64,000 bases of DNA from Hyunsoonleella aestuarii. Lineage in GTDB: Bacteria; Bacteroidota; Bacteroidia; Flavobacteriales; Flavobacteriaceae. The translations under genes and the position numbers were made by a program. Positions 10,912 through 30,309 of the stretch are shown here, in pieces. Under the pieces are notes generated by a model. It saw only the letters and a list, made by a program, of their open reading frames with translations. It searched no databases and had not been told where the DNA came from. Within the stretch, counting starts at the first letter, position 1, and the number at the start of each line of letters is the position of its first letter. The stretch spans positions 958,001-1,022,000 of the forward strand of contig NZ_VAWB01000001.1 in the NCBI RefSeq assembly GCF_006148925.1, written 5' to 3'.

Positions 10912-11307
10912 TTATGACCAAGGATTAAATGTTAAGTTTTCCATATAGTCTTGCTTTTGAACTATCAGCATTTTTTCAATACCATTATCATCTTTCACAG
11001 GGAGAAAACCATAATCATAGCAGAAATAATATGTTCCACTTTTAAAAGTGTAAATATGGGTGAATACATCGAAGCTATATCCAGATTTAAATAATATTTC
11101 TTTTTCCACTGTGGTCTTTCCACTTGGACTAAAATGCGCTAACAAAGTTCTGTTTCTTCTTAGCGTACTATTTGTTCTCTGAATAAATATCTCATGTAAA
11201 GGTCTGTTCTTATTATGATGAGTACTTCTACACTGAGCATCACAAAATTTTTTATCAGTTCTTCCTATAAGTTCTTTATTACAGGCTAAACAAAACTTCA
11301 TTTGCAT
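10912..11307 (-). CDS. Small zinc-ribbon protein divergent from the recombinase
   Basis: 131 residues beginning MQMKFCLACNKELIGRTDKKFCDAQCRSTHHNK. The pair CxxC and CxxxC in the first 26 residues makes a zinc ribbon of a type common in small flavobacterial proteins. The start may be ATG 11307 or ATG 11301. The rest is basic and then contains beta-like segments ending YDYGFLPVKDDNGIEKMLIVQKQDY. It is transcribed away from the recombinase, with a 34-bp palindrome between them, so it could bind DNA and regulate the recombinase or assist recombination. That is inference from position only; it may instead be an ordinary chromosomal gene. Confidence 0.7.
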   Translation of the reverse strand: MQMKFCLACNKELIGRTDKKFCDAQCRSTHHNKNRPLHEIFIQRTNSTLRRNRTLLAHFSPSGKTTVEKEILFKSGYSFDVFTHIYTFKSGTYYFCYDYGFLPVKDDNGIEKMLIVQKQDYMENLTFNPWS

Positions 11308-11317: not shown

Positions 11318-11351
11318 TTTAGACGTTTATATACGTATATAAACGTCTAAA
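11318..11351. promoter_or_regulatory. Perfect 34-bp palindrome upstream of the recombinase
   Basis: The half-site is TTTAGACGTTTATATAC (11318-11334), followed immediately by its exact reverse complement to 11351, with no loop. It lies between two divergent genes, 38 bases before the recombinase start. It could be an operator for a dimeric regulator, a cruciform or a recombinase binding site. It lacks a T tract on either side long enough for a convincing terminator. Confidence 0.75.
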
Positions 11352-11389: not shown

Positions 11390-12307
11390 ATGGGAACAAG
11401 ACTATTAATTACATCATCAATGAATACCATTGGTACTAAACCAGATTATCAAATGGCAATGGATTTATTGCTTCAAAAGTTAATCTTAAAGAATTACAGC
11501 CAGAACACTATTAAGACCTACGTGCACATGTTTAAAAAGTTTCTTGAACACATACACCCAATGCCTCTACATCAGGTCACCACAGCCCATATTATGCATT
11601 ATCATAAAGAATTAGTAACAAAGCATGGTGTATCCTCATCTTACCAGAATCAAAGCATAAACGCCATTAAATTTTACATAGAGAAAGTGTTGAATCTGCC
11701 TAAAATAACTTATGATTTCTGTAGACCTAGAAAAGCGAAGACTCTACCCAATGTATTATCTTTAAATGAGGTATCAAGGATATTAGGTGTTATTGGAAAC
11801 ATAAAGCATAAAACTATACTTTCAGTCATATATGGTTGCGGACTAAGAATATCGGAATGCATTAATTTGAAGGTGGAAGATATTGATTCTTCCAATATGC
11901 GTGTATGGGTGAGAAATGCCAAAGGGAAGAAAGATAGAATTACATTATTATCTCCTACTTTATTGGTGGAATTAAGAGCTTATTACAAACTTTACAAACC
12001 AAAACAATGGCTATTTGAGGGGAGCTATGGAAAACAATACAGCGTATCCAGTATTAGACAGGTGTTTAATCGTTCCAAGAAGAAAGCTGGAGTTAATGTA
12101 CCAGCTACTGTACATACGTTAAGACACTCCTTTGCTACACATTTATTAGATAATGGAACCAATTTAAGATATATTCAAAAACTGTTAGGACATAACAGCT
12201 CTAAGACTACTGAAATATACACTCATGTTAGCACAACTAATCTGATGAACATTGAGAGTCCTTTCGAAAAGATAGGAAAATTCGCTACATTTGGAAATAG
12301 GGAATAA
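11390..12307 (+). CDS. Tyrosine recombinase (cassette integrase, Xer-like)
   Basis: 305 residues. An N-terminal SAM-like DNA-binding domain (about 20-110) includes LKNYSQNTIKTYVHMFKKFL. The catalytic domain has Arg153 (GCGLRISE), Lys178 (NAKGKKDR), His242-x-x-Arg245 (HTLRHSFATHLL), His268 (LLGHNSSKTT) and the nucleophile Tyr277 (EIYTHVS), so all active-site residues are present. Only about 63 residues separate the Lys from the HxxR box, so the extra segment found between them in classical IntI integrases is missing. It is transcribed in the same direction as the cassettes, which start 28 bases after its stop. An alternative start is ATG 11420. It most likely cuts and joins the attC-like sites described here. 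Confidence 0.9.
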   Translation: MGTRLLITSSMNTIGTKPDYQMAMDLLLQKLILKNYSQNTIKTYVHMFKKFLEHIHPMPLHQVTTAHIMHYHKELVTKHGVSSSYQNQSINAIKFYIEKVLNLPKITYDFCRPRKAKTLPNVLSLNEVSRILGVIGNIKHKTILSVIYGCGLRISECINLKVEDIDSSNMRVWVRNAKGKKDRITLLSPTLLVELRAYYKLYKPKQWLFEGSYGKQYSVSSIRQVFNRSKKKAGVNVPATVHTLRHSFATHLLDNGTNLRYIQKLLGHNSSKTTEIYTHVSTTNLMNIESPFEKIGKFATFGNRE

Positions 12308-12340
12308 ACGCAATAAAATACGTTTATTGAATAGTTGTGC
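12303..12340 (+). promoter_or_regulatory. Candidate attI (primary insertion site) after the recombinase gene
   Basis: An inverted repeat AATAAACG / CGTTTATT (12303-12310 and 12321-12328) overlaps the end of the recombinase gene. The crossover point G|TTGTGC is at 12334/12335. Everything right of this point is cassette DNA, because the same sequence begins again at 19310 after an unrelated left flank. The non-cassette side is therefore 12334 and leftwards. Confidence 0.6.
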
Positions 12341-13178
12341 ACAAGCTTGACCGATTCGGAAAAAATGAAGAAAAGTATTATCATATCAACAATTGCGATT
12401 GTAGGACTTCTTTCCTGTAAACGAGCAAATAAGTCAACACCTGATTTAGTTGATACAACTAAACTGGAATCAACACATAGTGTCAAAAACCAAAAATTGG
12501 AAACCGTCAACTATACAAAGTTTATTGATACTGAATATGAATATGCTGAGACAGGTAAGAAATTGATAATACGGAATGGTTTACCAAAGGGAGGAATGAA
12601 ATATACTGACCCTAATGGAGAGAACTATAATTATCGTATTTTTTGGACTCAAATAATTAATGAAACAGATAATTCCTTTGAACTATCCATTGAGATTCCT
12701 TCCTCTTCATTCGAGCTTCAATCCTCACCAACAGACTATTTCAAAATATTTCTTCCAAAAGAGGAAATGAATATTGATAAAATGTCATTGTCAGATTATG
12801 GACTATCTGATTTGGAAGCTGTTTTGGATAGCATATTTCTAAAACAAGTTTCGTTACAAAAAACTATCAACACAAAGGAAACGAGCTTTTTTTATATTGT
12901 AGCTCTTTTTAGTGAAGGATATGAAGGAGTTGTACGAGCAGGCCTAAATTTAAGAGATGGTAAACTTTTTTACAGAGTTAATGATGTGGAAATTAGTAGC
13001 GGAAAAATTAATACCAAAAACTTAAAACTACAGAATTGAATAAGAGCCAATGCACAACAATGTATAACCGCAATTACGGCGGATTCGACCACATCCGAAT
13101 CCACTCGGAATTGCTAAAGTCTATACCAAACCGAAAATTAACGCATATTAACTCGTAACAGACAGTTATACTAGACCG
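12335..13178 (+). mobile_element. Cassette 1 (844 bp), identical to cassette 3
   Basis: Identity with 19310-20153 starts exactly at G|TTGTGC and stops at the next crossover point (five bases after it by chance sharing). Both copies have the same offset throughout and encode identical proteins. Being the first cassette after the candidate attI, it is probably the last one inserted. Confidence 0.88.
12365..13039 (+). CDS. Hypothetical lipoprotein (copy 1)
   Basis: 224 residues starting MKKSIIISTIAIVGLLSCKRANK: a short lipoprotein signal with the lipidated Cys at 18. The mature part is polar, with a Thr/Asp/Lys-rich start and FEIL-type beta strands; no known domain was recognised. TTG codons further upstream in frame lie on the cassette boundary and are unlikely starts. 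An identical gene is at 19340-20014. Function is unknown; an outer-membrane or periplasmic surface role is likely because of the lipobox. Confidence 0.8.
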   Translation: MKKSIIISTIAIVGLLSCKRANKSTPDLVDTTKLESTHSVKNQKLETVNYTKFIDTEYEYAETGKKLIIRNGLPKGGMKYTDPNGENYNYRIFWTQIINETDNSFELSIEIPSSSFELQSSPTDYFKIFLPKEEMNIDKMSLSDYGLSDLEAVLDSIFLKQVSLQKTINTKETSFFYIVALFSEGYEGVVRAGLNLRDGKLFYRVNDVEISSGKINTKNLKLQN

Positions 13179-13184
13179 TTGTAT
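13051..13184 (+). repeat. attC-like site closing cassette 1 (134 bp)
   Basis: Left arm TGCACAACAATGTATAAC, right arm GTTATACTAGACCGTTGT, crossover at 13178/13179. The left arm is the complement of the cassette start GTTGTGCA. Inner stem around GCAATTACGGCGGATTCG (type 1). Confidence 0.85.
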
Positions 13185-13305
13185 GCCATTGCGTAAAAAC
13201 CAACCGCACATTAAGCACATTTGGTTTTTGCCATCACATAATCCGACCCTAAAAAAACCAAAAGAGCTTAATCACCAAATCACTCTCTGAATAGAATAAA
13301 ATCAC

Positions 13306-13313
13306 TATATTTG
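13306..13313 (+). promoter_or_regulatory. -7 box of the restriction-modification operon
   Basis: TATATTTG fits the Bacteroidota TAnnTTTG consensus and lies eight bases before the ATG of the regulator gene. No good -33 TTG was seen. It suggests that the cassette carries its own promoter. Confidence 0.5.
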
Positions 13314-13321
13314 GACAAATA

Positions 13322-13654
13322 ATGTCTAGACAAAAAACGTCTGTTATGAGTGTGCAAAAAACTTTTGGAGAACATTTAAAATCTCTACGGGAAGATCAAG
13401 GTTCACCCTTGAGAAAGATTGCTGCAGAATTGGATATAGATCAATCAACCTTAAGTAAAATTGAACGAGGTGAGAGATTGGCAAATTGTTCTCAACTACC
13501 CAAAATTGCTGAAATTTTTAATGTCACTGAAAAATCTCTAAAACTGATTTTATTAAGTGATCAGGTGGCTTCTCAAATAATGGAAGAGAGTAATACTCAT
13601 GAAATACTTAAAGTCGCTGAAGAAAAAATCAAATACCACAGAGCACAAAAATAA
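13322..13654 (+). CDS. XRE-family HTH regulator (putative controller protein)
   Basis: 110 residues. A helix-turn-helix of the Cro/C1 type spans about 16-70: FGEHLKSLREDQGSPLRKIA, then AELDIDQSTLSKIERGER. This resembles the controller (C) proteins that delay restriction until methylation is complete, but with a longer C-terminal tail. It is the first gene of the cassette 2 operon and ends one base before the ATG of the next gene. A regulatory role for the operon is inferred from position and fold. Confidence 0.85.
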   Translation: MSRQKTSVMSVQKTFGEHLKSLREDQGSPLRKIAAELDIDQSTLSKIERGERLANCSQLPKIAEIFNVTEKSLKLILLSDQVASQIMEESNTHEILKVAEEKIKYHRAQK

Positions 13655-13655
13655 T

Positions 13656-14921
13656 ATGGCAAACATCAATTCCGAAATAAAAAAAGTGTTCTCTGATCAA
13701 GAGTTATCGAGCTTCACGAAAACATTTAAAACGGCTAAAAAGGACTTAAACAAATGGACCCCAAAGCAAAAAAAATCAACTGGTTCTGTTGATGTAATTG
13801 ATTTCTTTTCTGGCTGCGGAGGTATGTCTCTTGGGTTTGCAGCTATCGGAAAATCAAAACTGTTTAATCTTATTGGTGCTGTAGACATCAATCAAAAAGC
13901 ATTAGACTCTTATGAAACCAACTTTAAATGCAAAACATTAAATAAAGACATAAAAGATTTATGCAATGAAGATGGAGTAAAACTTATAAGAGAGGAATTT
14001 AATTTACCAAAAATAAAAACTCGACCTTTAGTAGTAATAGGCTGTGCCCCATGCCAAGGTTTTTCAGCTCACAGAAAGAAAAACTGGGACAAAGATGATG
14101 AAAGAAACACTCTAATAGGGGCTTTTACTGATACAGCAATAAAACTACATCCAGACTTTATAGTAATGGAGAATGTTCCTGAAATATTGGGTAAAAAATA
14201 TTGGGAGCATTATGATGAAGCAAGGAAAATCTTAGAAGAAAACGGTTATACCGTAAAGCAAACAATATATAATTCTGCTTCTTTTGGGGTTCCCCAAGCA
14301 AGATTCAGAGCGATAATAATTGCATCAAAAATGGAATTTGAACTTCCTATTCCGCTTCTTGAAAAAGAACAGTTCATTACTGTGCGAGATGCTATATATG
14401 ATTTGCCTAAAGTTGCTGCTGGTGAAGTATCATTGATCGATAAATTTCATAAAAGTGCAAAACACAAATCAAGTACTATAGAAACAATCACACAAGTACC
14501 AAAAGATGGAGGGAATAGACCATCAGGTGTTGGTCCAAAGTGTCTTGATAAAGTGAATGGGTTTTCTGATGTTTATGGTAGATTATATTGGGACAAACCC
14601 TCTATTACATTAACTCAATATTCTAGAAACCCAGCAAGTGGCAGATTCATTCATCCTGAACAGAATCGAGGATTAACAATTCGAGAAGCTGCAAGAATTC
14701 AGAGCTTTCCTGATTCATACGATTTTCAAGGCTCCCTAGATCATTGTTTTAAACAAATTGGAGAATCGGTTCCTCCTTTATTATCAGTTGCTATTGCTTC
14801 TCAAATAATAAGAGCCCTATCTAATGAAATTAAATCTAATGATTGCGGAGTTGAGTCAATTACATCACCTGTAAGTAGTTTATATACAAGTAAATCAATT
14901 TCAGAAACGATATCATTATGA
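13656..14921 (+). CDS. DNA (cytosine-5) methyltransferase 1
   Basis: 421 residues from ATG 13656, chosen because it follows the regulator stop by one base; a longer frame from 13599 would overlap that gene. Cytosine-C5 methyltransferase motifs are in order: motif I DFFSGCGGMSLGF (from residue 46 region), motif IV PCQGFS with catalytic Cys133, motif VI VMENVPEI, motif VIII FGVPQARFR, and the closing FKQIGESVPPLLSVAIASQI. It transfers a methyl group from SAM to cytosine in the recognition site. It overlaps the next gene by four bases. Confidence 0.94.
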   Translation: MANINSEIKKVFSDQELSSFTKTFKTAKKDLNKWTPKQKKSTGSVDVIDFFSGCGGMSLGFAAIGKSKLFNLIGAVDINQKALDSYETNFKCKTLNKDIKDLCNEDGVKLIREEFNLPKIKTRPLVVIGCAPCQGFSAHRKKNWDKDDERNTLIGAFTDTAIKLHPDFIVMENVPEILGKKYWEHYDEARKILEENGYTVKQTIYNSASFGVPQARFRAIIIASKMEFELPIPLLEKEQFITVRDAIYDLPKVAAGEVSLIDKFHKSAKHKSSTIETITQVPKDGGNRPSGVGPKCLDKVNGFSDVYGRLYWDKPSITLTQYSRNPASGRFIHPEQNRGLTIREAARIQSFPDSYDFQGSLDHCFKQIGESVPPLLSVAIASQIIRALSNEIKSNDCGVESITSPVSSLYTSKSISETISL

Positions 14922-15958
14922 GCTTTACATGTATAGACGGATTTTCTGGTGCTGGTGGTTTAAGCTTGGGGTTATCCAAAGCGGGTTTTGATCTCCTTTA
15001 TAGTTTTGATATTGACAGATGTTCTGTAGAAACTCAGTTGCTAAATAAGAAATATTTCAATCATAAAATTCAGGAACTAGATATAAGAGAATTTGATCCT
15101 ATTGAAACAATGAATGAATTAGGGCTAATAAAAGGTGAATTATCCTTATTTGCAGGAGGTCCTCCTTGTCAAGGCTTTTCAATTCAAAGAATTGGGTCGG
15201 ATCAAGATGACAGGAATAATTTCGTGTTTGTATTTATCGAGAAAATGATCGCGTTATCCCCTAAATTCTTTCTTTTAGAAAACGTACCTGGATTAAATGG
15301 AAAAAGAGGAAAAAAAATACTTGAAGATGCTTTAAATTATGCAGAACAGAATGGCTATCATATTCACAAAAACATTTTAAACGCTCAAGAATATGGAGTT
15401 CCACAAAGAAGAAAAAGAGTAATAATTGTTGGTGAACGAAAATCCAATTCACCATTAAAATTCTCATATCCAAAACCAAGCACAAAAAAAATAAGTGTTC
15501 GAGATACAATTGGTCATCTACCTGCCACTCCAAAAGACGGGAAAGAACATCCAGATATTAAGCATCATAGAAGCGATAAGTTATCTGACATCAATGTCAA
15601 AAGAATTAAATATGTAAAAGAAGGCCAGGGAATGGCTTTTTTACCTGACCATCTTCTGGCCGATTGCCATAAGGCAGGTGCAGAAAAAATTGGCCATCGT
15701 AATGTCTACGGCAGAATGAAATGGGATGATGTAGCACCAACAATAACAGCTCGTTTCGATAGTTTCACAAGAGGTATGTTTGGGCACCCAGAGCAGAATA
15801 GAACTATATCTTTAAGAGAAGGAGCTCTCCTCCAAACCTTCCCTAAAGACTTTGAATTTGTTGGAAATAAAGTGGATATAGCTCGACAAATTGGTAATGC
15901 TGTACCTGTGAATTTAGCGGTTGCAGTTGGAAAAGAATTAATAAAGGCACTAAAATGA
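14918..15958 (+). CDS. DNA (cytosine-5) methyltransferase 2
   Basis: 346 residues. Motif I CIDGFSGAGGLSLGLS is at the N-terminus, motif IV PPCQGFS carries catalytic Cys84, followed by LLENVPGL, YGVPQRRKRVIIVG and the C-terminal RQIGNAVPVNLAVAVGKELI. It overlaps its neighbours by four bases on both sides (ATGA), so translation is coupled. Two separate cytosine methyltransferases in one operon usually mean an asymmetric target, one enzyme per strand. Confidence 0.94.
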   Translation: MSFTCIDGFSGAGGLSLGLSKAGFDLLYSFDIDRCSVETQLLNKKYFNHKIQELDIREFDPIETMNELGLIKGELSLFAGGPPCQGFSIQRIGSDQDDRNNFVFVFIEKMIALSPKFFLLENVPGLNGKRGKKILEDALNYAEQNGYHIHKNILNAQEYGVPQRRKRVIIVGERKSNSPLKFSYPKPSTKKISVRDTIGHLPATPKDGKEHPDIKHHRSDKLSDINVKRIKYVKEGQGMAFLPDHLLADCHKAGAEKIGHRNVYGRMKWDDVAPTITARFDSFTRGMFGHPEQNRTISLREGALLQTFPKDFEFVGNKVDIARQIGNAVPVNLAVAVGKELIKALK

Positions 15959-18900
15959 ATTTTAGTCAAACCCTAACTAATTATTTATCTGAACTTCATC
16001 AGGAAGTATTAGCAAGTCAATCTGGAGAAACTACAGCAGAACTATCATTCAGGACAAGTTTAGATAATTTTTTTAAAAATACAGCTAGTGCAATAGATTC
16101 AAAAATAGTAACGATTCCTGAGCCCAAAAACCAAAATAAACTTGGACGACCAGATTGGAGATTTCATAATGAAGATTCTATGGGCGTATATGGATACGTT
16201 GAAGCCAAAGGGATTGATAGTCAGAATCCTATAAATAAGGAAGCTTATAGGAATCAGGTAGAAAAATATCTAACACTCGGGAATCCAGTCCTATTAACTG
16301 ATGGAATAGACTTTATTCTTTTCAAACCAAATGGTGAAGAGGTAAATTATTCAGCATGTCAAAAACCAATTGATTGGAATAACCTGATTCCAAATACTGA
16401 ATTAGAAACACTTTTCTTAACTTTTTTCGGGCAAATTGGGCATCGTATAATTTCTGAAAACCAACTTGTAACTGAGGTTGCTAAAAGAGCAAGACTTTTA
16501 ACCTCCGAGATACAAGAATTTCTAAATTTAGAAGATGACGAAACAGAAAATCAAACGGAACTTAACACTGTACTCCTATTAAGAGAACTAAAAGATACAG
16601 CTTCATCAAATCATGACAGAACTTTAGGTGATGAATTAAACTTTTCAAGTTTTATTTCTCAAGTATTAACTTTTGGTTTACTGTATGCACATAGGATAAT
16701 CAACTCTGATTTAGAGACGCCTAAAATTAAATATGATAGAATTCATGAATTTTGGTTTTCTGTATTAGATGAAAAATACACTAATAATTTAATACCTTTT
16801 AAAACCCTAGTGAAAGGGCTAGAATCAGAACTTAATTCTGACTTAAGTAGGCTCGGGTTATGGTATGACGATTTAAGAAGATTATTAGCTCATATTCAAC
16901 TTTCCGATAGTCAAGTGGTGGCTCCAGATTTTCATGAACTTTATGAAATATTTTTATCGAAGTATGACCCAGTGACTCGCTTTGATTACGGGGCTTTCTA
17001 TACTCCTCGAGTTTTAGCATTTTATACAGTAGAATTTGCCAAGAGATTAATACAAACATCAATCCCTAATGTTGACCTCAATACTACTGGGAATAAAATA
17101 ATCGATCCTTGTTGTGGGACAGGAACATTCATTGAAGCAATTTTAAATGTTATAACTCCGAACGATAAAGTCGAATTAATTGGGTTTGAAATCCTTCCAG
17201 CACCTTACGCTTTGGCTCAATATAGAATGAGTATTATCAATGATGCTTATCCTGAAAACGTTCAAATAAAACTTACAAATACACTAAGTGATTCCCTTTT
17301 TGAATTAAATACTGACCCTGATTCAGAGGATACTAATGATTTGAGCAAAATGCTTGTAAAAGAACAGGAAGAAGCTTACCATTTAGCTACGCCTCCATTA
17401 ACATTAATTATTGGTAACCCTCCTTCATCAGATTCAATTTTCCAAATTCAAAATGAGGGAGAAATAATTAAAGCTCTCATAAATGATTTTAGGCCTGATG
17501 CTAATAATAGAACTTCACGGCAGAACACACAAAAGCAATTATCAAATGAATTTATAAAATTCCTAAGGTGGACTGCAGATAGAGCATTAAAAAGCACTCC
17601 ATCTATTTTTGTTTTAATTCTTCCTTCAAGTTTTTCGAAACATCCAACGTATAAATTTGCAAGAAAATTCCTTATTGAAAAGTTCAATGAAATTTGGGTT
17701 TTGGACTTTGACAGCGACCTTAGAACGGGAACTGAAGATATTAATCTATTTGACACTCAACAAGGTCGTTTAATTCTTGCTGCAACATTTAAGGAGGCTA
17801 GTTCTACCCCCGCTTTGATTAATTACAATTCAATTACTCATTTATCTAAATCTGACAAAGTTGATTTTTTCAATCAGACAGAAATTCGATTAGAAGATTG
17901 GGAAAGAATAGACTTAGACCAAGATGACTATTCATTAAAACCTAAAATGCAATTTAATAAGGAAGCCTATAATTTGTTCTGGCCAATTACAGATTCAAAT
18001 GATACAGGTATCTTTCTTAGACATTGTTCAGGTTTAAAACTGGCACCAACACATCTATTGGTTCATGCTTCATCAGGTCAATTAAAGAGACGATCAAAAT
18101 TCATTTCTCGGGCTGAAAATGATTTTGAAAATATTAAATCAAGATGGTATAGTGGCCAACGTAAAATCCCAAATCAATCTAAAATAACTGAAGGCATTAG
18201 ATCAAAACTTGGATTAGCTGCAAATTCGAATAACATCGAAAATTACTCATATAGACCGTTCCTAGAAACAAGCGTAATTCTAAATGATGAGTTATTAACT
18301 GAACTACAACAATTAGGTGGCGGTGGAACTAGGGTTCGTCCTGAAGTTCGAGCAGCTTACTCAGATGACAGAGTTTTTGGATTTATAGTTTCCCCTGCTC
18401 CTGAAGACCTTGGCGATAATCTTCACAAATTTGCATCCTTCTGTTGGAATCTACCAGACAATGATTTAAGCAAACGAGGTAGTGCACGAGTATTCTGTAA
18501 TTTTTTCCCAGAATATAAACGAAAGGGAGAATGGAATAGTGCGAACCAAAATAACATAAACCCAGTTCTCGTTAATATGTTATCTACTGAATTTGATTTG
18601 CCTCAAGATGAAATTATTACACTTTTAACATTTTACTCATATGCCCTATTGAGTTCTAATCTATATCTGAGTTCTTTTGAAGGAGCCTTGTTTGGTGTAG
18701 CAGGTAACTGGCCCAAAATTCCTATAACAAAGGATAAGTCTCTTTTTACTAGTGTCTCAGAATTTGGAAGTACTCTTGCAAATATTGAAAAATCAAGCTA
18801 CACAATTCCTGATATCACAATTGAGGAAAACGAAGTTTTATATCACAAATATAGTTTTGAGGAAAACACAATATGTTTGAAAAATGAGTCTGGGGGGATA

Positions 18901-19140
18901 GTAAAACAATATACAGATATTGCTTCTGACGTTATTGATTTTGAAATTTCTGGCTATAGTGTTTTAAAAGAATGGTTAAAAATGCATTCATTCCAATATT
19001 ATAGAAGGTCCCTTCAGGTCGACAAATTATTAGAGCTTGAAACCCTGATATCCAAAATCTCCTTATATATTGAAAAAGTTGTAGAATTAGATTTAGAAGT
19101 TGAACAAGTATTATCCAATGAACTATTTAGCCCTAACTAA
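15955..19140 (+). CDS. Type IIG-like restriction enzyme with PD-(D/E)XK nuclease and gamma-type methylase domain
   Basis: 1061 residues. A PD-(D/E)XK-like nuclease lies near the N-terminus: RPDW with Asp67, then Glu83-x-Lys85 in YVEAKG. A helical linker leads to the N6-adenine methylase fold: FYTPRVLAFYTVEFAKRL, motif I DPCCGTGTF (384-392), and motif IV at 488-491. Motif IV reads N-P-P-S instead of the usual NPP(Y/F/W), which may abolish methylation. The C-terminal third probably holds target recognition. No helicase motifs were seen. Last gene of the cassette 2 operon; the two cytosine methylases probably protect the host DNA. Confidence 0.82.
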   Translation: MNFSQTLTNYLSELHQEVLASQSGETTAELSFRTSLDNFFKNTASAIDSKIVTIPEPKNQNKLGRPDWRFHNEDSMGVYGYVEAKGIDSQNPINKEAYRNQVEKYLTLGNPVLLTDGIDFILFKPNGEEVNYSACQKPIDWNNLIPNTELETLFLTFFGQIGHRIISENQLVTEVAKRARLLTSEIQEFLNLEDDETENQTELNTVLLLRELKDTASSNHDRTLGDELNFSSFISQVLTFGLLYAHRIINSDLETPKIKYDRIHEFWFSVLDEKYTNNLIPFKTLVKGLESELNSDLSRLGLWYDDLRRLLAHIQLSDSQVVAPDFHELYEIFLSKYDPVTRFDYGAFYTPRVLAFYTVEFAKRLIQTSIPNVDLNTTGNKIIDPCCGTGTFIEAILNVITPNDKVELIGFEILPAPYALAQYRMSIINDAYPENVQIKLTNTLSDSLFELNTDPDSEDTNDLSKMLVKEQEEAYHLATPPLTLIIGNPPSSDSIFQIQNEGEIIKALINDFRPDANNRTSRQNTQKQLSNEFIKFLRWTADRALKSTPSIFVLILPSSFSKHPTYKFARKFLIEKFNEIWVLDFDSDLRTGTEDINLFDTQQGRLILAATFKEASSTPALINYNSITHLSKSDKVDFFNQTEIRLEDWERIDLDQDDYSLKPKMQFNKEAYNLFWPITDSNDTGIFLRHCSGLKLAPTHLLVHASSGQLKRRSKFISRAENDFENIKSRWYSGQRKIPNQSKITEGIRSKLGLAANSNNIENYSYRPFLETSVILNDELLTELQQLGGGGTRVRPEVRAAYSDDRVFGFIVSPAPEDLGDNLHKFASFCWNLPDNDLSKRGSARVFCNFFPEYKRKGEWNSANQNNINPVLVNMLSTEFDLPQDEIITLLTFYSYALLSSNLYLSSFEGALFGVAGNWPKIPITKDKSLFTSVSEFGSTLANIEKSSYTIPDITIEENEVLYHKYSFEENTICLKNESGGIVKQYTDIASDVIDFEISGYSVLKEWLKMHSFQYYRRSLQVDKLLELETLISKISLYIEKVVELDLEVEQVLSNELFSPN

Positions 19141-19243
19141 AACATACACATTGCCAAGTCGCTCAAAAGCCAACCACTCGAGCCAAAACTTGTCAAAGAG
19201 TATGTTTTTCCAACGCTGAAAACAAAATGAATAAAATAAAAAC

Positions 19244-19316
19244 GGCATACAACAAGGTATAAAATGCATAGCCACCCTGCGGGATGGCTACGACATCTTA
19301 TACAGACCGTTGTGCA
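19244..19316 (+). repeat. attC-like site closing cassette 2 (short form)
   Basis: GGCATACAACAAGGTATAA opens and TTATACAGACCGTTGTGC closes it; the inner hairpin is TAGCCACCC-tgc-GGGATGGCTA. The outer arm exactly complements the start of cassette 2. Crossover at 19309/19310. Confidence 0.85.
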
Positions 19317-20153
19317 CAAGCTTGACCGATTCGGAAAAAATGAAGAAAAGTATTATCATATCAACAATTGCGATTGTAGGACTTCTTTCCTGTAAACGAG
19401 CAAATAAGTCAACACCTGATTTAGTTGATACAACTAAACTGGAATCAACACATAGTGTCAAAAACCAAAAATTGGAAACCGTCAACTATACAAAGTTTAT
19501 TGATACTGAATATGAATATGCTGAGACAGGTAAGAAATTGATAATACGGAATGGTTTACCAAAGGGAGGAATGAAATATACTGACCCTAATGGAGAGAAC
19601 TATAATTATCGTATTTTTTGGACTCAAATAATTAATGAAACAGATAATTCCTTTGAACTATCCATTGAGATTCCTTCCTCTTCATTCGAGCTTCAATCCT
19701 CACCAACAGACTATTTCAAAATATTTCTTCCAAAAGAGGAAATGAATATTGATAAAATGTCATTGTCAGATTATGGACTATCTGATTTGGAAGCTGTTTT
19801 GGATAGCATATTTCTAAAACAAGTTTCGTTACAAAAAACTATCAACACAAAGGAAACGAGCTTTTTTTATATTGTAGCTCTTTTTAGTGAAGGATATGAA
19901 GGAGTTGTACGAGCAGGCCTAAATTTAAGAGATGGTAAACTTTTTTACAGAGTTAATGATGTGGAAATTAGTAGCGGAAAAATTAATACCAAAAACTTAA
20001 AACTACAGAATTGAATAAGAGCCAATGCACAACAATGTATAACCGCAATTACGGCGGATTCGACCACATCCGAATCCACTCGGAATTGCTAAAGTCTATA
20101 CCAAACCGAAAATTAACGCATATTAACTCGTAACAGACAGTTATACTAGACCG
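19310..20153 (+). mobile_element. Cassette 3 (844 bp), second copy of cassette 1
   Basis: Matches 12335-13178 at a constant offset of 6975 bases, including its attC-like site. The left flank (end of cassette 2) and right flank (cassette 4) are unrelated to those of copy 1. Confidence 0.88.
19340..20014 (+). CDS. Hypothetical lipoprotein (copy 2)
   Basis: The same 224-residue protein as the gene at 12365, with signal MKKSIIISTIAIVGLLSC. The complete protein identity indicates very recent duplication. No domain recognised. Confidence 0.8.
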   Translation: MKKSIIISTIAIVGLLSCKRANKSTPDLVDTTKLESTHSVKNQKLETVNYTKFIDTEYEYAETGKKLIIRNGLPKGGMKYTDPNGENYNYRIFWTQIINETDNSFELSIEIPSSSFELQSSPTDYFKIFLPKEEMNIDKMSLSDYGLSDLEAVLDSIFLKQVSLQKTINTKETSFFYIVALFSEGYEGVVRAGLNLRDGKLFYRVNDVEISSGKINTKNLKLQN

Positions 20154-20159
20154 TTGTGG
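20026..20159 (+). repeat. attC-like site closing cassette 3 (134 bp, type 1)
   Basis: Same sequence as the site at 13051-13184. Crossover at 20153/20154. Confidence 0.85.
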
Positions 20160-20185
20160 TTAATGTCCCAAAACCGAGAAAGTGA

Positions 20186-20980
20186 ATGAACAAAACGATA
20201 TTTGAGATTACCAAAATGGATTGTCCTTCCGAGGAAAATCTAATCCGAATGAAATTGGACGGAATCTCAAATATTGCGAATTTGGACTTTGACATTCCGA
20301 ACCGAAAACTGACTGTTTTTCACAGCGGACAAATCGACCAAATTGAAAAGTCCGTTCTAGAACTGAATTTAGGCGGAAGGAAAATCTCGACCGAACAAAC
20401 CGACCAAACAGAATTTATTGAAAACGCAAACCAGAAAAAACTACTTTGGACTGTACTTGGAATTAACTTTGCATTTTTCCTCATTGAAATGACTACTGGA
20501 CTCATTTCAAAATCAATGGGATTGGTTGCTGACAGTTTGGATATGCTTGCCGACAGTTTCGTTTATGGAATCAGTCTTTTTGCGGTTGGCGCAACTCTGA
20601 CAAGAAAAAAACGGATTGCTAAACTTGCTGGATATTTTCAAATAACACTTGCTATTATTGGATTTGTGGAAGTCTTAAGGAGATTTTTCGGAGACGAGAA
20701 ACTTCCCGATTTTTCAACAATGATTATCGTTTCGATTTTTGCACTTATTGCAAACGGAATTTGCCTTTACATTTTACAACAGTCAAAAAGCAAAGAAGAG
20801 GCTCATATGAAAGCGAGCATGATTTTCACTTCAAATGATGTGATTATCAATTTGGGAGTAATAATCGCAGGAATTTTGGTAAATTGGTTAAGTTCAAACA
20901 AACCTGATTTGATTATCGGAACAATCGTTTTTGCTTTGGTAATTCAAGGAGCATTTAGAATTTTAAAATTGAGTAAATAA
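20186..20980 (+). CDS. Cation transporter, CDF-like, with N-terminal metal-binding-like domain
   Basis: 264 residues. About 65 N-terminal residues resemble a heavy-metal-associated fold: FEITKMDCPSEENLIRMKL, keeping only one Cys of the usual CxxC. Six hydrophobic helices follow with SMGLVADSLDMLADSFVYG, the Asp-bearing metal site of cation diffusion facilitators, and MIFTSNDVIINLGVIIAG in helix 5. It probably exports a divalent metal such as Zn or Co. Sole gene of cassette 4; its leader is 32 bases. Confidence 0.8.
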   Translation: MNKTIFEITKMDCPSEENLIRMKLDGISNIANLDFDIPNRKLTVFHSGQIDQIEKSVLELNLGGRKISTEQTDQTEFIENANQKKLLWTVLGINFAFFLIEMTTGLISKSMGLVADSLDMLADSFVYGISLFAVGATLTRKKRIAKLAGYFQITLAIIGFVEVLRRFFGDEKLPDFSTMIIVSIFALIANGICLYILQQSKSKEEAHMKASMIFTSNDVIINLGVIIAGILVNWLSSNKPDLIIGTIVFALVIQGAFRILKLSK

Positions 20981-20988
20981 ATAAACAC

Positions 20989-21122
20989 TAACCACAACAA
21001 TGGCTATAATTCATTGCTTCGGATTTTCTTTCGAAAATCCTCGCACTTTTGCTATCTTGGTTTCTTAATAGGAAAATCCTTGCGGATTTTCACGCAACTA
21101 CTCATAGCCGAGACCGTTGGCA
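20989..21122 (+). repeat. attC-like site closing cassette 4 (134 bp, type 2)
   Basis: TAACCACAACAATGGCTAT opens (complement of the cassette start GTTGTGGTTA) and CATAGCCGAGACCGTTGG closes. Inner repeats GAAAATCC / GGATTTTC. Crossover 21116/21117. Confidence 0.85.
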
Positions 21123-21221
21123 ATAATTAATTATATCTATAAATTTATCAAGCATAACTTAAATATAAACATTTATATTACACTTATATATAATACTTAA
21201 TATTACATAAATATAATAAAT

Positions 21222-22154
21222 ATGGATAGTTTACTAAATCAAGAAGTGTTATATAAATGGAGCACTCCATTTTTTGCAGTTATTATCATATTTGAAATTC
21301 TTGTAAGCTACTATTACCAGAAAAAAAATTATACATTTAAAGATACATTTACAAACGTATATTTTGCTGCAATAAATATTGGACTTGATTTAATAATGAA
21401 AGTTATTTCATTATTTGTTTTAGGTTTTTTCTATCAACATCATTTATTAACGTGGGAAAATCAAACATTAATTTACTGGGTTTTTGTTTTTGTTTTTCAA
21501 GATTTTTTATATTACATCCAACATTATGTTGATCATCATTCTCGTTTCTTTTGGGCGGTACATGTAACTCATCATAATTCTAAATACTATAATTTAACTA
21601 CAGGGTTTCGCTCTTCTGTTTTTCAGCCTCTTTATCGATATTTATTTTTTATTCCATTGGCAATAATGGGAGTTCCTTCATTGCATATTATGTTTGCTTA
21701 TGCATTAGGTCAAATTTATGGAGTGTTCTGTCATACTAAATTTATTAAATATAATTTTGGTTTTTTTGGAAAAATATTTGTTACACCATCCCATCATAGA
21801 GTTCACCATGCATCAAATATTATGTATTTAGACAAAAACTTAGGTACGGTTTTAATCATATGGGACAAGATATTTGGCACATTTCAAGCTGAGAAAACGA
21901 CTGAAGATTATGAAGAAATAAAATTTGGATTAACAGAAAACCAAAAAAGCACGGGTTTATTTAATATTATTTTTCACGAATGGAATTCAATTTTAAAAGA
22001 TTTTTTTATAAATAAAAGACATCTGAGTTTACAAATTCGCTTAAAGTATGTCTTTTATCGTCCAGGGTGGAGTCATGACGGAAGCACAGAAACAAGTAAA
22101 GAATTGCAAGAAAAGTTAATCGATAAAAAAAGAACTATTGCCAACAATGTATAA
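21222..22154 (+). CDS. Sterol desaturase / fatty acid hydroxylase family protein
   Basis: 310 residues of an integral-membrane di-iron enzyme. The histidine clusters are visible: HYVDHHSRFFWAVHVTHHN (about 104-122) and TPSHHRVHHASN (about 190). Four or so hydrophobic helices surround them. Such enzymes hydroxylate or desaturate lipids in the membrane. Sole gene of cassette 5. Its last codons (TIANNV and the stop) lie inside the left arm of the attC-like site, so the site is partly coding. Confidence 0.88.
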   Translation: MDSLLNQEVLYKWSTPFFAVIIIFEILVSYYYQKKNYTFKDTFTNVYFAAINIGLDLIMKVISLFVLGFFYQHHLLTWENQTLIYWVFVFVFQDFLYYIQHYVDHHSRFFWAVHVTHHNSKYYNLTTGFRSSVFQPLYRYLFFIPLAIMGVPSLHIMFAYALGQIYGVFCHTKFIKYNFGFFGKIFVTPSHHRVHHASNIMYLDKNLGTVLIIWDKIFGTFQAEKTTEDYEEIKFGLTENQKSTGLFNIIFHEWNSILKDFFINKRHLSLQIRLKYVFYRPGWSHDGSTETSKELQEKLIDKKRTIANNV

Positions 22155-22271
22155 AAATAATTGCTAGATTGGTGCTTAAACAAGGGGTGTTGCAGTTTTG
22201 TTACGTCTGATTTTCCTTCGGAAAATCCTTGCACACAAAACCGCAACTATTCTTATACAAACACGTTGGCA
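22137..22271 (+). repeat. attC-like site closing cassette 5 (type 4)
   Basis: ATTGCCAACAATGTATAAAA opens and TTCTTATACAAACACGTTGGC closes. The outer arm complements the cassette start GTTGGCAAT. Crossover 22265/22266. It overlaps the end of the gene at 21222-22154. Confidence 0.85.
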
Positions 22272-22300
22272 AACATTAAACTAACCAAAACCATTCAATT

Positions 22301-23497
22301 ATGAAAAAATTACTATTTGCGCTAATTGCCATCTCAATATTAGCTGGATGCAAAACTGAAAAAGAAGGAAGCAATGTTGTAATTAATGAATTACCACTGA
22401 AATCTTACTTTCAAAAAAGTAACCTTCCTGCTGCGCTTATGGGTTGTAGTAACAGAGAAGGAAAAATAAGCTGGTATGCGTTTGGGCCATCAATTTGGGG
22501 AGGGAAAGACACAATAAATGAAAACAACATCTTTAGGATTTTTTCAATGACAAAGGCCATATCCTCTGTTGCCGCATTGCAACTTGTTGAAAAAGGATTA
22601 ATTGGACTAGATGACCCTTTAGACGAACTTATGCCTGAAATGACATCTATTCCTATTATGACCAAAAATGGAGAACTTGTTAAAGCTAATAAATCAATAA
22701 CTTTGAGAAACTTATTAACCCACACTGCTGGATTTGGATATGATTTCTTGGACGAACGCCTTCAAAAATTTGATAAAACAGGATGGAATTATGCTGACCT
22801 GCCCAGATTATTCGAAAGTGGTGAAAAATGGGAATACGGAACGAATTTAGATTGGGTTGGAAAGGTTATTGAAAAAATAAGTGGTGAAGACCTTGAAACT
22901 TACTTAAGAAAAAATATTACTGGGCCTTTAAAAATGAATAGCACTTGGTTTAATGTTCCTGAAAATTTGAAAGAAAATATTGTTTCTTGGGGAATTCGAG
23001 ACTCAGTTGGTTTTAAAGAGTATTCTCGTATTCCAACTAAACCAGTTGCTGAATATAACGCAGGTGGCGGTTTGTTTGGTTCACCAAAGGATTATTTAAC
23101 ATTTCTTGAATGCATTAAGAATAATGGCAAATATTATGGTGGTCAAATTTTAAAACCCGAAATCGTTGAGTTAATGTTCAAAAATCAACTGCCCAATGGA
23201 TTAACGTTAAGTTATAATGTAATTGAAGGTGGTATGGTTGATATATTGGGTGGATTCCCCGATAATTCTGATGTTTATTCGTTATCATGGGCAATTGAAA
23301 ATAATGAGGACGAGTTGATCAGAACCAAAGGTTCTGCCTATTGGGCTGGAATGGCTAATTCTTATTACACATTGGATAATGACAAAGGGATAGCCATAGT
23401 ATATTTTACACAGCTTTTTCCTTTCAATGATAAAGTATCTTTTGATTTTTATCGTCTATTCGAAAAAGAAGTTTACAATAGTCTTAACACTAAATAA
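22301..23497 (+). CDS. Serine hydrolase, class C beta-lactamase fold, lipoprotein
   Basis: 398 residues. The signal MKKLLFALIAISILAGC gives a lipoprotein. The active-site SxxK is SMTK in RIFSMTKAISSVAALQL (about 80). A YxN-type box is YGTN at about 184. Related proteins include esterases, D-aminopeptidases and penicillin-binding-like enzymes, so antibiotic resistance should not be assumed. Sole gene of cassette 6, 36 bases after its crossover point. Confidence 0.85.
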   Translation: MKKLLFALIAISILAGCKTEKEGSNVVINELPLKSYFQKSNLPAALMGCSNREGKISWYAFGPSIWGGKDTINENNIFRIFSMTKAISSVAALQLVEKGLIGLDDPLDELMPEMTSIPIMTKNGELVKANKSITLRNLLTHTAGFGYDFLDERLQKFDKTGWNYADLPRLFESGEKWEYGTNLDWVGKVIEKISGEDLETYLRKNITGPLKMNSTWFNVPENLKENIVSWGIRDSVGFKEYSRIPTKPVAEYNAGGGLFGSPKDYLTFLECIKNNGKYYGGQILKPEIVELMFKNQLPNGLTLSYNVIEGGMVDILGGFPDNSDVYSLSWAIENNEDELIRTKGSAYWAGMANSYYTLDNDKGIAIVYFTQLFPFNDKVSFDFYRLFEKEVYNSLNTK

Positions 23498-23500
23498 CGA

Positions 23501-23634
23501 TTTGCCAACAATATGTATAATTCATTGCTAGTTATAGCCTACTTACGAAAGTCCTCGTGGACTTTCTATCTGTGATTTATTTGCTAACTTTAGTGTTTAA
23601 ACACGCAACGAAATCATACACAAAACCGTTGTAA
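23501..23634 (+). repeat. attC-like site closing cassette 6 (134 bp, type 3)
   Basis: TTTGCCAACAATATGTATAA opens (complement of GTTGGCAAA) and AAATCATACACAAAACCGTTG closes except for the first base. Crossover 23628/23629. Confidence 0.83.
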
Positions 23635-23667
23635 TTAATTAAAGCACAGAATATATAAACTGTTAAT

Positions 23668-24096
23668 TTGAATTTATCTGATTACGTAAAAAGAAGAAAT
23701 GGTGTGCCTTTGGGTAACAGTCATTCACTTCGTAATATGTTGAATCGTTCTCTGGGAGCGGGAAAGTTTTCAATATTTTGGCAATACTGGAATCCAATCT
23801 GGGGTTTCTATCTAGGGAAATATATATTCAAACCCCTTAAACTCATCTTACCCCAAGCAATATCCCTGTTAATGACTTTTATTGTTTGTGGATTTATCCA
23901 TGACCTTGTTATCATGTTATTAAAATGGAAATTTATCCTACTTCTAACCCCATGGTTTTTATTTATGGGTCTTGGTGTAATTTTAAGTGACTATGCGAAA
24001 ATTGATTACTCAAAATTTCCATGGATTGTTAGAGCTGGTATAAACATAGCTATCATATTAGGTTGCTTAATTCTAGCTTACCAAATAAGAATCTAA
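23668..24096 (+). CDS. Small membrane protein resembling an MBOAT fragment
   Basis: 142 residues from TTG 23668; ATG 23737 is an alternative start. The stretch FSIFWQYWNPIWGFYLGKYI followed by KPLKLILPQAISLLMTFIVCGFIHDL resembles the FWRRWNIS...yiPL...tF..sGlWHG core of membrane-bound O-acyltransferases, with His in the same relative place. A full MBOAT is about three times longer, so this is either a small relative or a remnant kept as a cassette. Several hydrophobic helices. Sole gene of cassette 7. Confidence 0.6.
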   Translation: MNLSDYVKRRNGVPLGNSHSLRNMLNRSLGAGKFSIFWQYWNPIWGFYLGKYIFKPLKLILPQAISLLMTFIVCGFIHDLVIMLLKWKFILLLTPWFLFMGLGVILSDYAKIDYSKFPWIVRAGINIAIILGCLILAYQIRI

Positions 24097-24127
24097 AACA
24101 AAGGAGAATTGCTAAAATGAATAAACT

Positions 24128-24187
24128 AATTACAACAACCTATAAAATCAATGTAAAACACTAATTTTATATATAACCGTTACCTGT
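24128..24187 (+). repeat. attC-like site closing cassette 7 (short, 60 bp)
   Basis: AATTACAACAACCTATAAAAT opens (less its first base it matches the cassette start GTTGTAATT) and ATTTTATATATAACCGTTACC closes. Crossover 24179/24180. Confidence 0.75.
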
Positions 24188-24331
24188 AATTCTGAGAATG
24201 ATATTAAATATTTAAAACTATATCATAATTTCTACAAATAATTATTAAGAATAATCTATTATTTCAATTTAAGTTACAATTTTCAGACTTTGTCGTCATC
24301 ATTGTATAGATGTTTAAATAAATATACTTTT

Positions 24332-24850
24332 ATGAGAATCAAATTAATATTTTTTAGCTTTTTCCTTTCTTTCTTTTTTATAAATGCTCAAACAACTAAA
24401 GATTCTAACGTGGAATTGGAAAAAGTAATTGATGTTTTTAGAGTATCAATAATAGAGCGTAATGATTTTGAAAAATTTTCTAATTTATTTTTGCATGATT
24501 CTATTACTTGGGCAGCAATTATAACAGGAGAGACTAAAAAAAGAGTGCTTCAACAAAAACCTGATTTCACATTTCAAACTAGTAATTACAAGACTTTCTT
24601 TGAAGAATTGAAAGATGGAAGTGAAGAAAAATTTTATAACGTTAAAATAGATGTGCTAAATGAATTTGCAACTATATCATTTGACTACAGTTTCAATGTT
24701 AATTCAAAAATTCAAAATTGGGGAACTGAATACTGGTCTCTAATTCTAATGAATAATACATGGAAAATCACAAGTGTAACTTGGTCTCAGAATATGCAAA
24801 ATTTAGAAGCCTGCCCTTTTGAACCTAAGGATCTCTTCAAAATGAATTAA
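24332..24850 (+). CDS. NTF2-like (DUF4440/SnoaL-type) secreted protein
   Basis: 172 residues from ATG 24332, chosen because it begins a clean signal peptide MRIKLIFFSFFLSFFFINAQ; an upstream in-frame start at 24290 would spoil it. The mature part reads DVFRVSIIERNDFEKFSNLF, then WGTEYWSLILMNNTWKITSVTWS, the helix and terminal strand pattern of small NTF2-like folds. The ligand or reaction is unknown. Sole gene of cassette 8, preceded by an unusually long 150-base leader in which nothing was recognised. Confidence 0.65.
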   Translation: MRIKLIFFSFFLSFFFINAQTTKDSNVELEKVIDVFRVSIIERNDFEKFSNLFLHDSITWAAIITGETKKRVLQQKPDFTFQTSNYKTFFEELKDGSEEKFYNVKIDVLNEFATISFDYSFNVNSKIQNWGTEYWSLILMNNTWKITSVTWSQNMQNLEACPFEPKDLFKMN

Positions 24851-24873
24851 TGAAAATAATAGTAATGCAAACT

Positions 24874-25022
24874 ACAGGTAACGACGTCTATAATTAATTG
24901 CTTGGGTATTGCCTACTTACGAAAATCCTTGCGTCCGGATAGCTATCGGGATTCTATTCGGTTTGTATTTGCTAAATTAGTTGCTGAAACACGCAACGAC
25001 ATCATACACAAACACGTTATAC
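24874..25022 (+). repeat. attC-like site closing cassette 8 (149 bp, type 3 with insertion)
   Basis: ACAGGTAACGACGTCTATAATT opens less its last bases, complementary to the start GTTACCTGT; ACATCATACACAAACACGTT closes. A palindrome-like CCGGATAGCTATCGGG at 24935-24950 explains the extra length. Crossover 25016/25017. Confidence 0.82.
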
Positions 25023-25037
25023 GCAATTACAAAAAAT

Positions 25038-26564
25038 ATGAAAATCAAAATGAACATCCTTTCCATAATTGGGTTATTATTATTCTCTACTTCATTCGCC
25101 CAACAAATACAATTAGATTCACTTGATTTACAAATTGACCAAGTAATAAAAGACTTCGAAATTCCCGGGCTTTCGATAGGTATCATTAGGAATGATTCTG
25201 TAATATTTTCCAAAGGGTATGGAAAATTGGAAATACTAAAAGAAAGAAAAGTTGATGAAAACACTCTTTTTGGAATAGGTTCGATTTCTAAATCTTTTAC
25301 TGCCCTAACGTTGGGAATTTTAGTTGATGAAGGAAAAATTAATTGGGATGATAAAGTTAAAGAGTATCTACCCTATTTTGAATTGTATGCCCCTTACGTA
25401 ACAGATAATTTTACAATTAGAGATTTACTTACACATAGAAGTGGTCTTAAAGATGTCAGTGGTGGAACACTTTGGTATCACTCAGATTATTCTAGGGAAG
25501 AAATAATAAAACGACTCAAATATTTGGAGCCTGAGTCAAGCTATAGAGAAAAGCCAGCATATCAAAATGTTATGTACGTTATTGCTTCTGAGATAGTTAA
25601 AGTAGTTTCTGGAATATCCTGGGATGATTTCCTAAGAGAACGTGTGTTTGACAAACTTAAAATGAACAACAGCACATCTTTCTCTAAGGAACGAGAAGCT
25701 AACATAAATCTCGCGCAGCCACATATTTGGAATGAAGAATATAAAAAAGTTGCAATAATTCAAGAAAAAGGAGACAATCTTGCACCTGGTGGATTCATCT
25801 ATTCCTCTGCAACTGAAATGTCGAATTATATGAAATTGTTATTGAATAATGGAGTAATTGATAATGACACCGTGGTTAGTCCGAAAATTATCAAGGAAAT
25901 TTTTAAGCCACAAATTATTTATGCAGATGGAGGAATGTTCAAAAATGAATTTTCTTCCTATGGGTTCGGTTGGTGGCTCACGCCAGTTAATGGGCACAAG
26001 ATAATAGAACATAGTGGTGGAATTGACGGGATGTCCGCTCAGTTGGTAATGATAAAGGACATGAATGTGGGGTTTATCATACTTACAAACACCTCGAAAG
26101 AACCATCAACTTTTTTCTTGAGAGCATTGTTATTGAGTGAGCTTCTTAATGAACCTCTCTCTGACAATTTTTACTCTAGAGTAAAAGAATGGCGGGCAAA
26201 TAACATTAAAGAAAAAAGAGCATCTTCAAAAAATATTTCAAGATCTATAAATACTAACCCTTCATTGGCAATCAAAGACTATACTGGAAAATATACCGAT
26301 AAGATGTATGGTGAAATACTTATAAAGAAAATAGGTGAAAATGAATTAGAAATCGCGTTTTCACATACTAAAGTATTCAGAGGGAAATTGAAACATTGGC
26401 ATTTTGACACCTTTAAAATCGATTGGTATGACATTCGCGTTCCTGATGGGTTTTTAACTTTCAATTTTAGTGCTAAAAGAGAAATATTAGGTTTCTCATT
26501 CGATCAAGAAAATTTACTGGATGTTGATTTTGGAGAACTGAATGTTTTGAAAAATAAAAACTGA
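25038..26564 (+). CDS. Secreted serine hydrolase, beta-lactamase fold, with C-terminal extension
   Basis: 508 residues from ATG 25038; the signal peptide is MKIKMNILSIIGLLLFSTSFAQ. SxxK is SISK in FGIGSISKSFTALTLG (about 78), YxN is YQN in KPAYQNVMYVIASE, and the third box is HSGG in KIIEHSGGIDGMSAQ. A C-terminal beta-rich domain of about 100 residues starts near DYTGKYTDKMYGEI, as in DUF3471-type extensions. Probably a periplasmic peptidase or esterase. Sole gene of cassette 9; the cassette leader is only 21 bases. Confidence 0.88.
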   Translation: MKIKMNILSIIGLLLFSTSFAQQIQLDSLDLQIDQVIKDFEIPGLSIGIIRNDSVIFSKGYGKLEILKERKVDENTLFGIGSISKSFTALTLGILVDEGKINWDDKVKEYLPYFELYAPYVTDNFTIRDLLTHRSGLKDVSGGTLWYHSDYSREEIIKRLKYLEPESSYREKPAYQNVMYVIASEIVKVVSGISWDDFLRERVFDKLKMNNSTSFSKEREANINLAQPHIWNEEYKKVAIIQEKGDNLAPGGFIYSSATEMSNYMKLLLNNGVIDNDTVVSPKIIKEIFKPQIIYADGGMFKNEFSSYGFGWWLTPVNGHKIIEHSGGIDGMSAQLVMIKDMNVGFIILTNTSKEPSTFFLRALLLSELLNEPLSDNFYSRVKEWRANNIKEKRASSKNISRSINTNPSLAIKDYTGKYTDKMYGEILIKKIGENELEIAFSHTKVFRGKLKHWHFDTFKIDWYDIRVPDGFLTFNFSAKREILGFSFDQENLLDVDFGELNVLKNKN

Positions 26565-26696
26565 GTATAACACCGTGTATAATTAATTGCTGCGGAATTT
26601 CCTCATCGGAAATTCACTTGAATTAATTAACTTGCCAATACAGCGGAAAATGACTGACGCCCTTTTCCGCAACTAATCATACACAAACCGTTGTGC
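26563..26696 (+). repeat. attC-like site closing cassette 9 (134 bp)
   Basis: GAGTATAACACCGTGTATAA opens (GTATAAC complements the start GTTATAC) and AATCATACACAAACCGTTGTG closes less the last base. Its first two bases overlap the stop codon of the hydrolase. Crossover 26690/26691. Confidence 0.83.
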
Positions 26697-26710
26697 ATAA
26701 TTTATGAAAT

Positions 26711-27259
26711 ATGACTGATCAGAAAATAACTTGGAAATATCTTTTAGCTTGTATAAGTGCTGTATTTTTTACCTGGATTATCCATGAATTTACACATTGG
26801 ATTACAAGTGAATCACTTGGATATGAATCAGTTTTGACACTAAACACAGTATCACCAATATCCGGTCAAAAATATACTGAATTGCATAATATCTATGTTT
26901 CAGCTTCGGGACCTTTAATCACTATTATGCAAGCAGTAATTGTGTTTATGATTCTTATTAAAAGAAACTGGAGTAAGTCATTTTACCCCTTCTTGTTCAC
27001 TCCTTTATACATGAGGTTGCTTGCAGGAGGGATGAATTTCATCAATCCCAATGATGAAGGAAGAATAAGTGAATACTTTGGATTAGGAGTTTTTACAATA
27101 TCTATACTTGTAAGTATGATCTTATTTTTTTTGGTTTATAAGATTTCAAACAAGTATAAATTAAGTTGGAAATTTAATATGTGGACAACTATAATTATAA
27201 TGGTTGTTAGTTCAATCTTGGTATTGTCAGATCAAATCCTTCATATTAGAATTATCTAA
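26711..27259 (+). CDS. Small M50-like membrane metalloprotease
   Basis: 182 residues with about five hydrophobic helices. The zinc motif HExxH is HEFTH in FFTWIIHEFTHWITSESLG (about 21-25). A mid-chain YVSASGPLITIMQA and a later NPNDEGR resemble the GP and NxxDG elements of site-2 (M50) proteases. The substrate is unknown. An ATG at 26704 is in another frame and closes at once, so 26711 is the start. Sole gene of cassette 10. Confidence 0.72.
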   Translation: MTDQKITWKYLLACISAVFFTWIIHEFTHWITSESLGYESVLTLNTVSPISGQKYTELHNIYVSASGPLITIMQAVIVFMILIKRNWSKSFYPFLFTPLYMRLLAGGMNFINPNDEGRISEYFGLGVFTISILVSMILFFLVYKISNKYKLSWKFNMWTTIIIMVVSSILVLSDQILHIRII

Positions 27260-27268
27260 ATTAAAACT

Positions 27269-27321
27269 ATGCACAACAATGTATATAAGCCATAAAACGC
27301 CTCATATACTAGACGTTGTGG
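27269..27321 (+). repeat. attC-like site closing cassette 10 (short, 53 bp)
   Basis: ATGCACAACAATGTATAT opens and ATATACTAGACGTTGTGG closes, complementing the start GTTGTGCAT. The inner loop is AGCCATAAAACGCCTC. Crossover 27315/27316. Confidence 0.82.
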
Positions 27322-27358
27322 TTCATTAAATAAAACACTAACCAAAATAAATACAGTC

Positions 27359-28405: not shown

Positions 28406-28408
28406 AAT

Positions 28409-30307: not shown

Positions 30308-30309
30308 CG

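Follow-up and report, generated by a model that had tools for sequence, protein, structure and literature searches.

The closest described systems are the IntI-attI-attC integrons, such as that of the integrase VchIntIA with its VCR sites, in which a tyrosine recombinase lies beside an attI site and an array of single-gene cassettes. One account regards the additional helix of IntI as the innovation that enabled the recombination of folded single strands (PMC7790495). By definition, bulges of the R''-L'' arm are the extrahelical bases of an attC site; VchIntIA grips these bases in two pockets and cannot recombine two attC sites without them (PMC2727003). Standard integron surveys demand the IntI-specific domain (PMC9668308), and IntegronFinder 2.0 names one complete integron within the Bacteroidetes, in Salinibacter ruber (PMC9024848). 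In the integrons of Treponema, the integrase is transcribed toward attI and the cassettes run in the same direction (PMC3607928). A search of the open-access literature found no published description of a platform such as the one presented here.

The window analysed, a 64,000-nt stretch from Hyunsoonleella aestuarii, holds a tyrosine recombinase gene, a site placed like attI and a cassette array (Table 1). The recombinase is very probably the integrase of a chromosomal integron-like platform, which would recombine attI with bottom-strand attC at G^TT and probably choose the strand by hairpin stability and by a spacer. The attC sites have the R''-L''-L'-R' boxes of classical attC, with spacers of 2-3 and 5-6 nt and a GTT crossover and, as in integrons, the box at the end of a cassette is complementary to the cassette's own start. 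Unlike IntI integrons, the platform has an integrase without the additional segment and outside the IntI clade, a single direction of transcription, few R''-L'' extrahelical bases, a strand bias due to G.T wobbles, a palindromic attI and a divergent gene for a Zn-ribbon-like protein.

The recombinase consists of a SAM-like N-terminal domain followed by a Phage_integrase domain. The preliminary description of the locus had listed R153, K178, H242, R245, H268 and Y277 as the catalytic residues, and each is found at its position; across 39 aligned homologues R153 is present in more than 90% and the others are invariant. It had also claimed a spacing of about 63 residues between K178 and the HxxR box and the absence of the IntI-specific segment. 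Both claims hold, since 63 residues lie between K178 and H242, and, when aligned with twelve IntI and five Xer sequences, the protein has a stretch from the K beta-hairpin to the HxxR box that is about 43 columns shorter than in IntI, as it is in Xer. The phmmer alignment with VchIntIA (2a3v) breaks at this same missing segment (query 218|222, chain 202|247). In the AlphaFold model (pLDDT 85.5), the helix at 189-202 is followed by a short turn and the next helix at 219-232, which leaves no space for the I2 helix. The model is as close to XerA (Z 22.7) as to VchIntIA (Z 22.2). The best-matching curated protein models are the XerA-type NF040815 (215 bits, cut-off 220) and the integron integrase model TIGR02249 (207 bits, cut-off 265), and the protein passes neither cut-off; for TIGR02225 it scores 174 bits against a cut-off of 330. 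The only other candidates in the genome are two Xer-like proteins.

In the phylogenetic tree, IntI and Xer each form one clade (100/99 in both cases), and the window recombinase falls outside both; a place well inside IntI, which would have refuted the preliminary proposal, is not what the tree gives. The protein lies outside the Xer clade too, so that "neither IntI nor Xer" is more exact than the earlier wording "Xer-like enzyme". It shares the fold and the missing segment with XerA, XerC and XerD but, unlike them, adjoins a cassette array. A 100/99 split separates Xer from the IntI side of the tree, where the protein and its relatives share an unresolved comb with phage and IS91-associated recombinases. 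Placing the window's own subgroup (the P0001 group) with Xer is rejected (AU test, p 0.032). The data neither establish nor reject one clade for all the Bacteroidota recombinases (AU p 0.25), because the phage and IS91-type sequences sit within the comb. The IS91-associated tyrosine recombinases of alphaproteobacterial plasmids share 35% identity with the window recombinase and the same side of the tree, and two of the three seen adjoin IS91 transposases in the flanks examined. As judged from these sequences, the recombinase lineage is distinct, and the tree leaves room both for an origin before IntI and for one apart from it.

Table 1. Features of the recombinase locus and the cassette array, in window positions.
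Feature	Position	Strand	Remarks
Zn-ribbon-like accessory gene, 131 aa, divergent	10912..11307	-	conserved beside the recombinase
Perfect intergenic palindrome of 34 nt, likely operator	11318..11351	.	similar in L005, L035, L057, L058
Putative cassette recombinase, 305 aa	11390..12307	+	SAM-like N-terminal domain and catalytic domain, no IntI segment
Candidate attI	12303..12336	+	inverted repeat AATAAACG-N10-CGTTTATT at 12303-12328, ends 5 nt before crossover GTT (12334)
Cassette 1, lipoprotein-like ORF	12334..13177	+	identical copy is cassette 3
Cassette 2, 6131 bp	13178..19308	+	own start GTTGTATGCC matches own end GGCATACAAC
Cassette 3	19309..20152	+	letter-for-letter copy of cassette 1
Cassette 4, cation transporter-like	20153..21115	+	
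Cassette 5, sterol desaturase-like	21116..22264	+	
Cassette 6, serine hydrolase-like	22265..23627	+	
Cassette 7	23628..24178	+	attC of just 45 nt
Cassette 8	24179..25015	+	
Cassette 9, serine hydrolase-like	25016..26689	+	
Cassette 10	26690..27314	+	
Cassette 11, alpha/beta hydrolase-like	27315..28535	+	end box AAT instead of AAC
Cassette 12	28536..29511	+	weak attC
Cassette 13	29512..30437	+	
Cassette 14	30438..31208	+	degenerate start box CTT
Cassette 15	31209..32200	+	
Cassette 16	32201..32719	+	
Cassette 17	32720..33431	+	
Cassette 18	33432..33989	+	
Cassette 19	33990..35131	+	
Isolated attC, decayed array end	39284..39407	+	covariance model
Further weak attC sites	42480-42598 and 44167-44286		covariance model

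The array begins 26 nt after the stop codon of the recombinase and spans 12334 to at least 35131. Each unit opens with GTTNNNN and closes with the reverse complement of that start; a hairpin of 40-138 nt then leads to the next GTT. Most sites escape a search that demands perfect 7-bp stems for attC, and therefore the complementarity within each cassette was used instead. This score is blind to the strand because the sites are palindromic, and the orientation therefore rests on the ORFs, the spacers and the recombinase. The identical cassettes 1 and 3 flank the large cassette 2, which encodes, by functions read from the sequence, an HTH protein, two C5 methylase-like proteins and a 1061-aa methylase/restriction-like protein; a putative complete restriction-modification-like system thus travels as one 6.1-kb cassette. 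The preliminary description had remarked on the shared direction of recombinase and cassettes. This layout is indeed kept throughout, but the same-direction integrases of Treponema (PMC3607928) mean that it does not by itself mark a new lineage; those integrons, compared here through their published description, are reported with intI genes, unlike the window.

A covariance model of attC, based on 56 hairpins from the window and from related loci and with no plasmid-derived row, detects 15 window sites with E of 1e-12 or better. Across the whole genome (G000) it gives 43 matches, which form five clusters and one lone weak site; four of these clusters (C1:1770-1780 kb, C1:2047-2052 kb, C3:294-299 kb and C3:361-383 kb) lie without an adjoining recombinase of this family. 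In a search against Rfam, tRNA was the sole match. The decayed end of the array also holds an N-terminal remnant of another tyrosine recombinase (39055-39197, minus strand), which points into the array and shares 41% identity over 34 aa with its best-scoring relative.

The attC sites were compared with those of classical integrons by applying one procedure to both, with 12 classical IntI loci from the same phylum as the control. Five of these controls gave a clear array; intI was divergent from it in four of them and codirectional in the fifth. The 220 distinct attC sites of the new type are mostly 120-129 nt long, and the bottom strand is the more stable in 196 of 217 and the top strand in 21 (p 9e-37, a value that overstates independence because the sites are related by descent), whereas the control sites show no strand bias in energy (11 vs 14). 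The bias goes along with 338 A.C mispairs of the top strand that turn into T.G wobbles on the bottom strand, against 20 of the converse kind. Bulges in the R''-L'' arm are present in 24 of 26 classical attC sites but in just 23 of 204 here (p 2e-17), and half of the sites here carry a bulge on the other arm. Since removal of the extrahelical bases blocks attC x attC recombination by IntI (PMC2727003), the window enzyme must work differently. An enzyme without the segment, paired with sites without the bases which that segment needs, implies that enzyme and site changed together. This double absence, as read from the sequences, is the strongest argument that both belong together and would work in a way unlike that of IntI.

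The site between recombinase and first cassette follows a common pattern. In most platforms an inverted repeat, often of 2 x 11 bp and loopless, lies between the stop codon and GTT and ends 4-7 nt before the latter; arms of at least 8 bp occur in 57% of attI sites and 1.7% of shuffled sequences. Three loci, two in one genome (L057 and L058) and one in another (L035), have an attI identical letter for letter and split exactly at GTT into three different first cassettes. A shared attI with divergence from GTT onward is the trace expected from insertion at attI, and by position and breakpoints this site beside the integrase corresponds to the entry site of cassettes. Upstream, a homologue of the Zn-ribbon protein is present in 47 of 87 platforms, always divergent and just before the recombinase. 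The protein weakly resembles DUF2116, and no Pfam or NCBIfam model scores above its cut-off. The long intergenic palindrome is strong in the P0001 subgroup only and is likely an operator; together, gene and palindrome suggest an accessory or regulatory partner.

The sequences themselves show the missing segment, the cassette logic, the linkage, the position of attI, the strand bias, the scarcity of R''-L'' bulges and the duplicated cassettes; from these features we infer catalysis, binding, cleavage of the bottom strand and entry at attI. The recombinase would bind the double-stranded attI just past its own stop codon and join it to cassettes by way of an attC hairpin extruded from the bottom strand; the cut would fall at G^TT, and incoming cassettes would land beside attI. 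Because both the I2 segment and the R''-L'' extrahelical bases are missing, the choice of strand would probably depend on hairpin stability, as A.C mismatches of the top strand correspond to G.T wobbles in the bottom one, and on the unpaired spacer between the L and R boxes.

The linkage of recombinase and cassettes extends well beyond this genome. Homologues of the recombinase at E 1e-45 or better are found in 191 of the 299 genomes sampled from the family and in 149 of 295 from the class; the named relatives (Jejuia, Pontibacter, Flammeovirgaceae and Chitinophagaceae) point to Flavobacteriaceae and Bacteroidia as this family and class. Most homologues (L008-L064) carry about 100 additional residues at the N-terminus, which form an extra domain (motif TLKHLLINNxKxIGLKF) absent from the window protein. 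The order recombinase, inverted-repeat attI and cassettes, in one direction, recurs in 28 further loci, and in these 28 distinct loci and the window the GTT of the first cassette lies 12-107 nt past the recombinase stop. This spacing speaks against the action of the enzyme on a site unrelated to the repeats, an outcome that the preliminary description had foreseen as fatal to its proposal. In 20-kb stretches from complete genomes, cassettes start just past the recombinase stop and number up to 27 in a row; chain scores are 43-177 in the clearest related loci, and almost no shuffled control exceeds 11. The ORF is oriented like the recombinase in 205 of 213 cassettes, and of 35 pairs of near-identical repeated stretches, 19 end at GTT, vs 11% by chance. 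L049 and L050 contain long repeats (about 1877 bp), both internal and shared by the two loci, that look like insertion sequences and not like cassettes.

Among 120 genomes of the family, 83 of the 84 that have the recombinase also have attC, vs 24 of the 36 that lack it (p 1.2e-6). Where a close recombinase is missing, a third of the genomes still have at least 10 attC sites, and in several of them only Xer-like proteins or broken recombinase pieces were found. Clusters of attC lacking an integrase are a known phenomenon, and these genomes resemble them; we read the arrays without recombinase as decayed, and Xer could act there. IntI scores above its cut-off in 105 of 395 genomes of a phylum-wide sample and, counted among the genomes listed, in one of the 98 sampled from the class.

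Alternatively, the recombinase could be the integrase of a genomic island at tRNA-Ala, with the array as cargo moved by something else, which is improbable. The tRNA-Ala gene (10676-10750) lies 640 nt from the recombinase, a 30-nt piece of its 5' half recurs at 45816-45845 with 87% identity, and two close relatives in one genome are found 630-750 nt after a tRNA (L057, Leu; L058, Phe). However, the three tRNAs differ, most other platforms keep recombinase, attI and array with no tRNA in the examined stretch, and the conserved junction lies at GTT, on the side opposite to the tRNA. Activity as an island integrase at the tRNA and activity on cassettes could coexist. As a separate observation, the recurrence of the tRNA piece at 45.8 kb may delimit a 35-kb island that encloses the whole integron.

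The existence of arrays in genomes with Xer-like proteins only would fit a scheme in which host XerC/XerD move the cassettes and the neighbouring recombinase is incidental. Such a scheme is very unlikely, as the recombinase closely adjoins the first cassette in many genera and is associated with the presence of attC, and Xer enzymes generally act on double-stranded dif-like sites instead of hairpins. It is hardly credible that the protein is an inactive IntI that lost its extra segment and left a dead array: the decay of the array between 35 and 44 kb and the truncated recombinase piece within it agree with such a history, but all catalytic residues are kept, the ORF is open in nearly all genomes, the protein stands outside IntI at 100/99 and cassettes are duplicated identically.

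The integrase of an integron-like platform thus remains the preferred reading of the window protein, and the earlier proposal of a distinct integron lineage gains from the tree position outside IntI and from the linkage of a cassette array to this recombinase family. We read the sequences as those of a distinct lineage of integrons, with an integrase that either lost the IntI helix or never possessed it. There is a reasonable likelihood that the platform represents a second class of integrons, widespread in a bacterial class nearly devoid of true IntI, in which an integrase without I2 and attC sites without R''-L'' extrahelical bases co-evolved, either as an ancestral state before IntI or as an independent origin of hairpin recombination. 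If true, an integron lineage without the IntI helix would mean that the helix is not essential, and the lineage would be a candidate for the state before IntI. A large reservoir of mobile genes would also lie hidden, since standard surveys demand the IntI domain. One platform is already on a mobilizable plasmid: in pls1 of Pontibacter kalidii (L114, 8963-13877), six cassettes with short attC sites of 43-56 nt follow a recombinase of the family.
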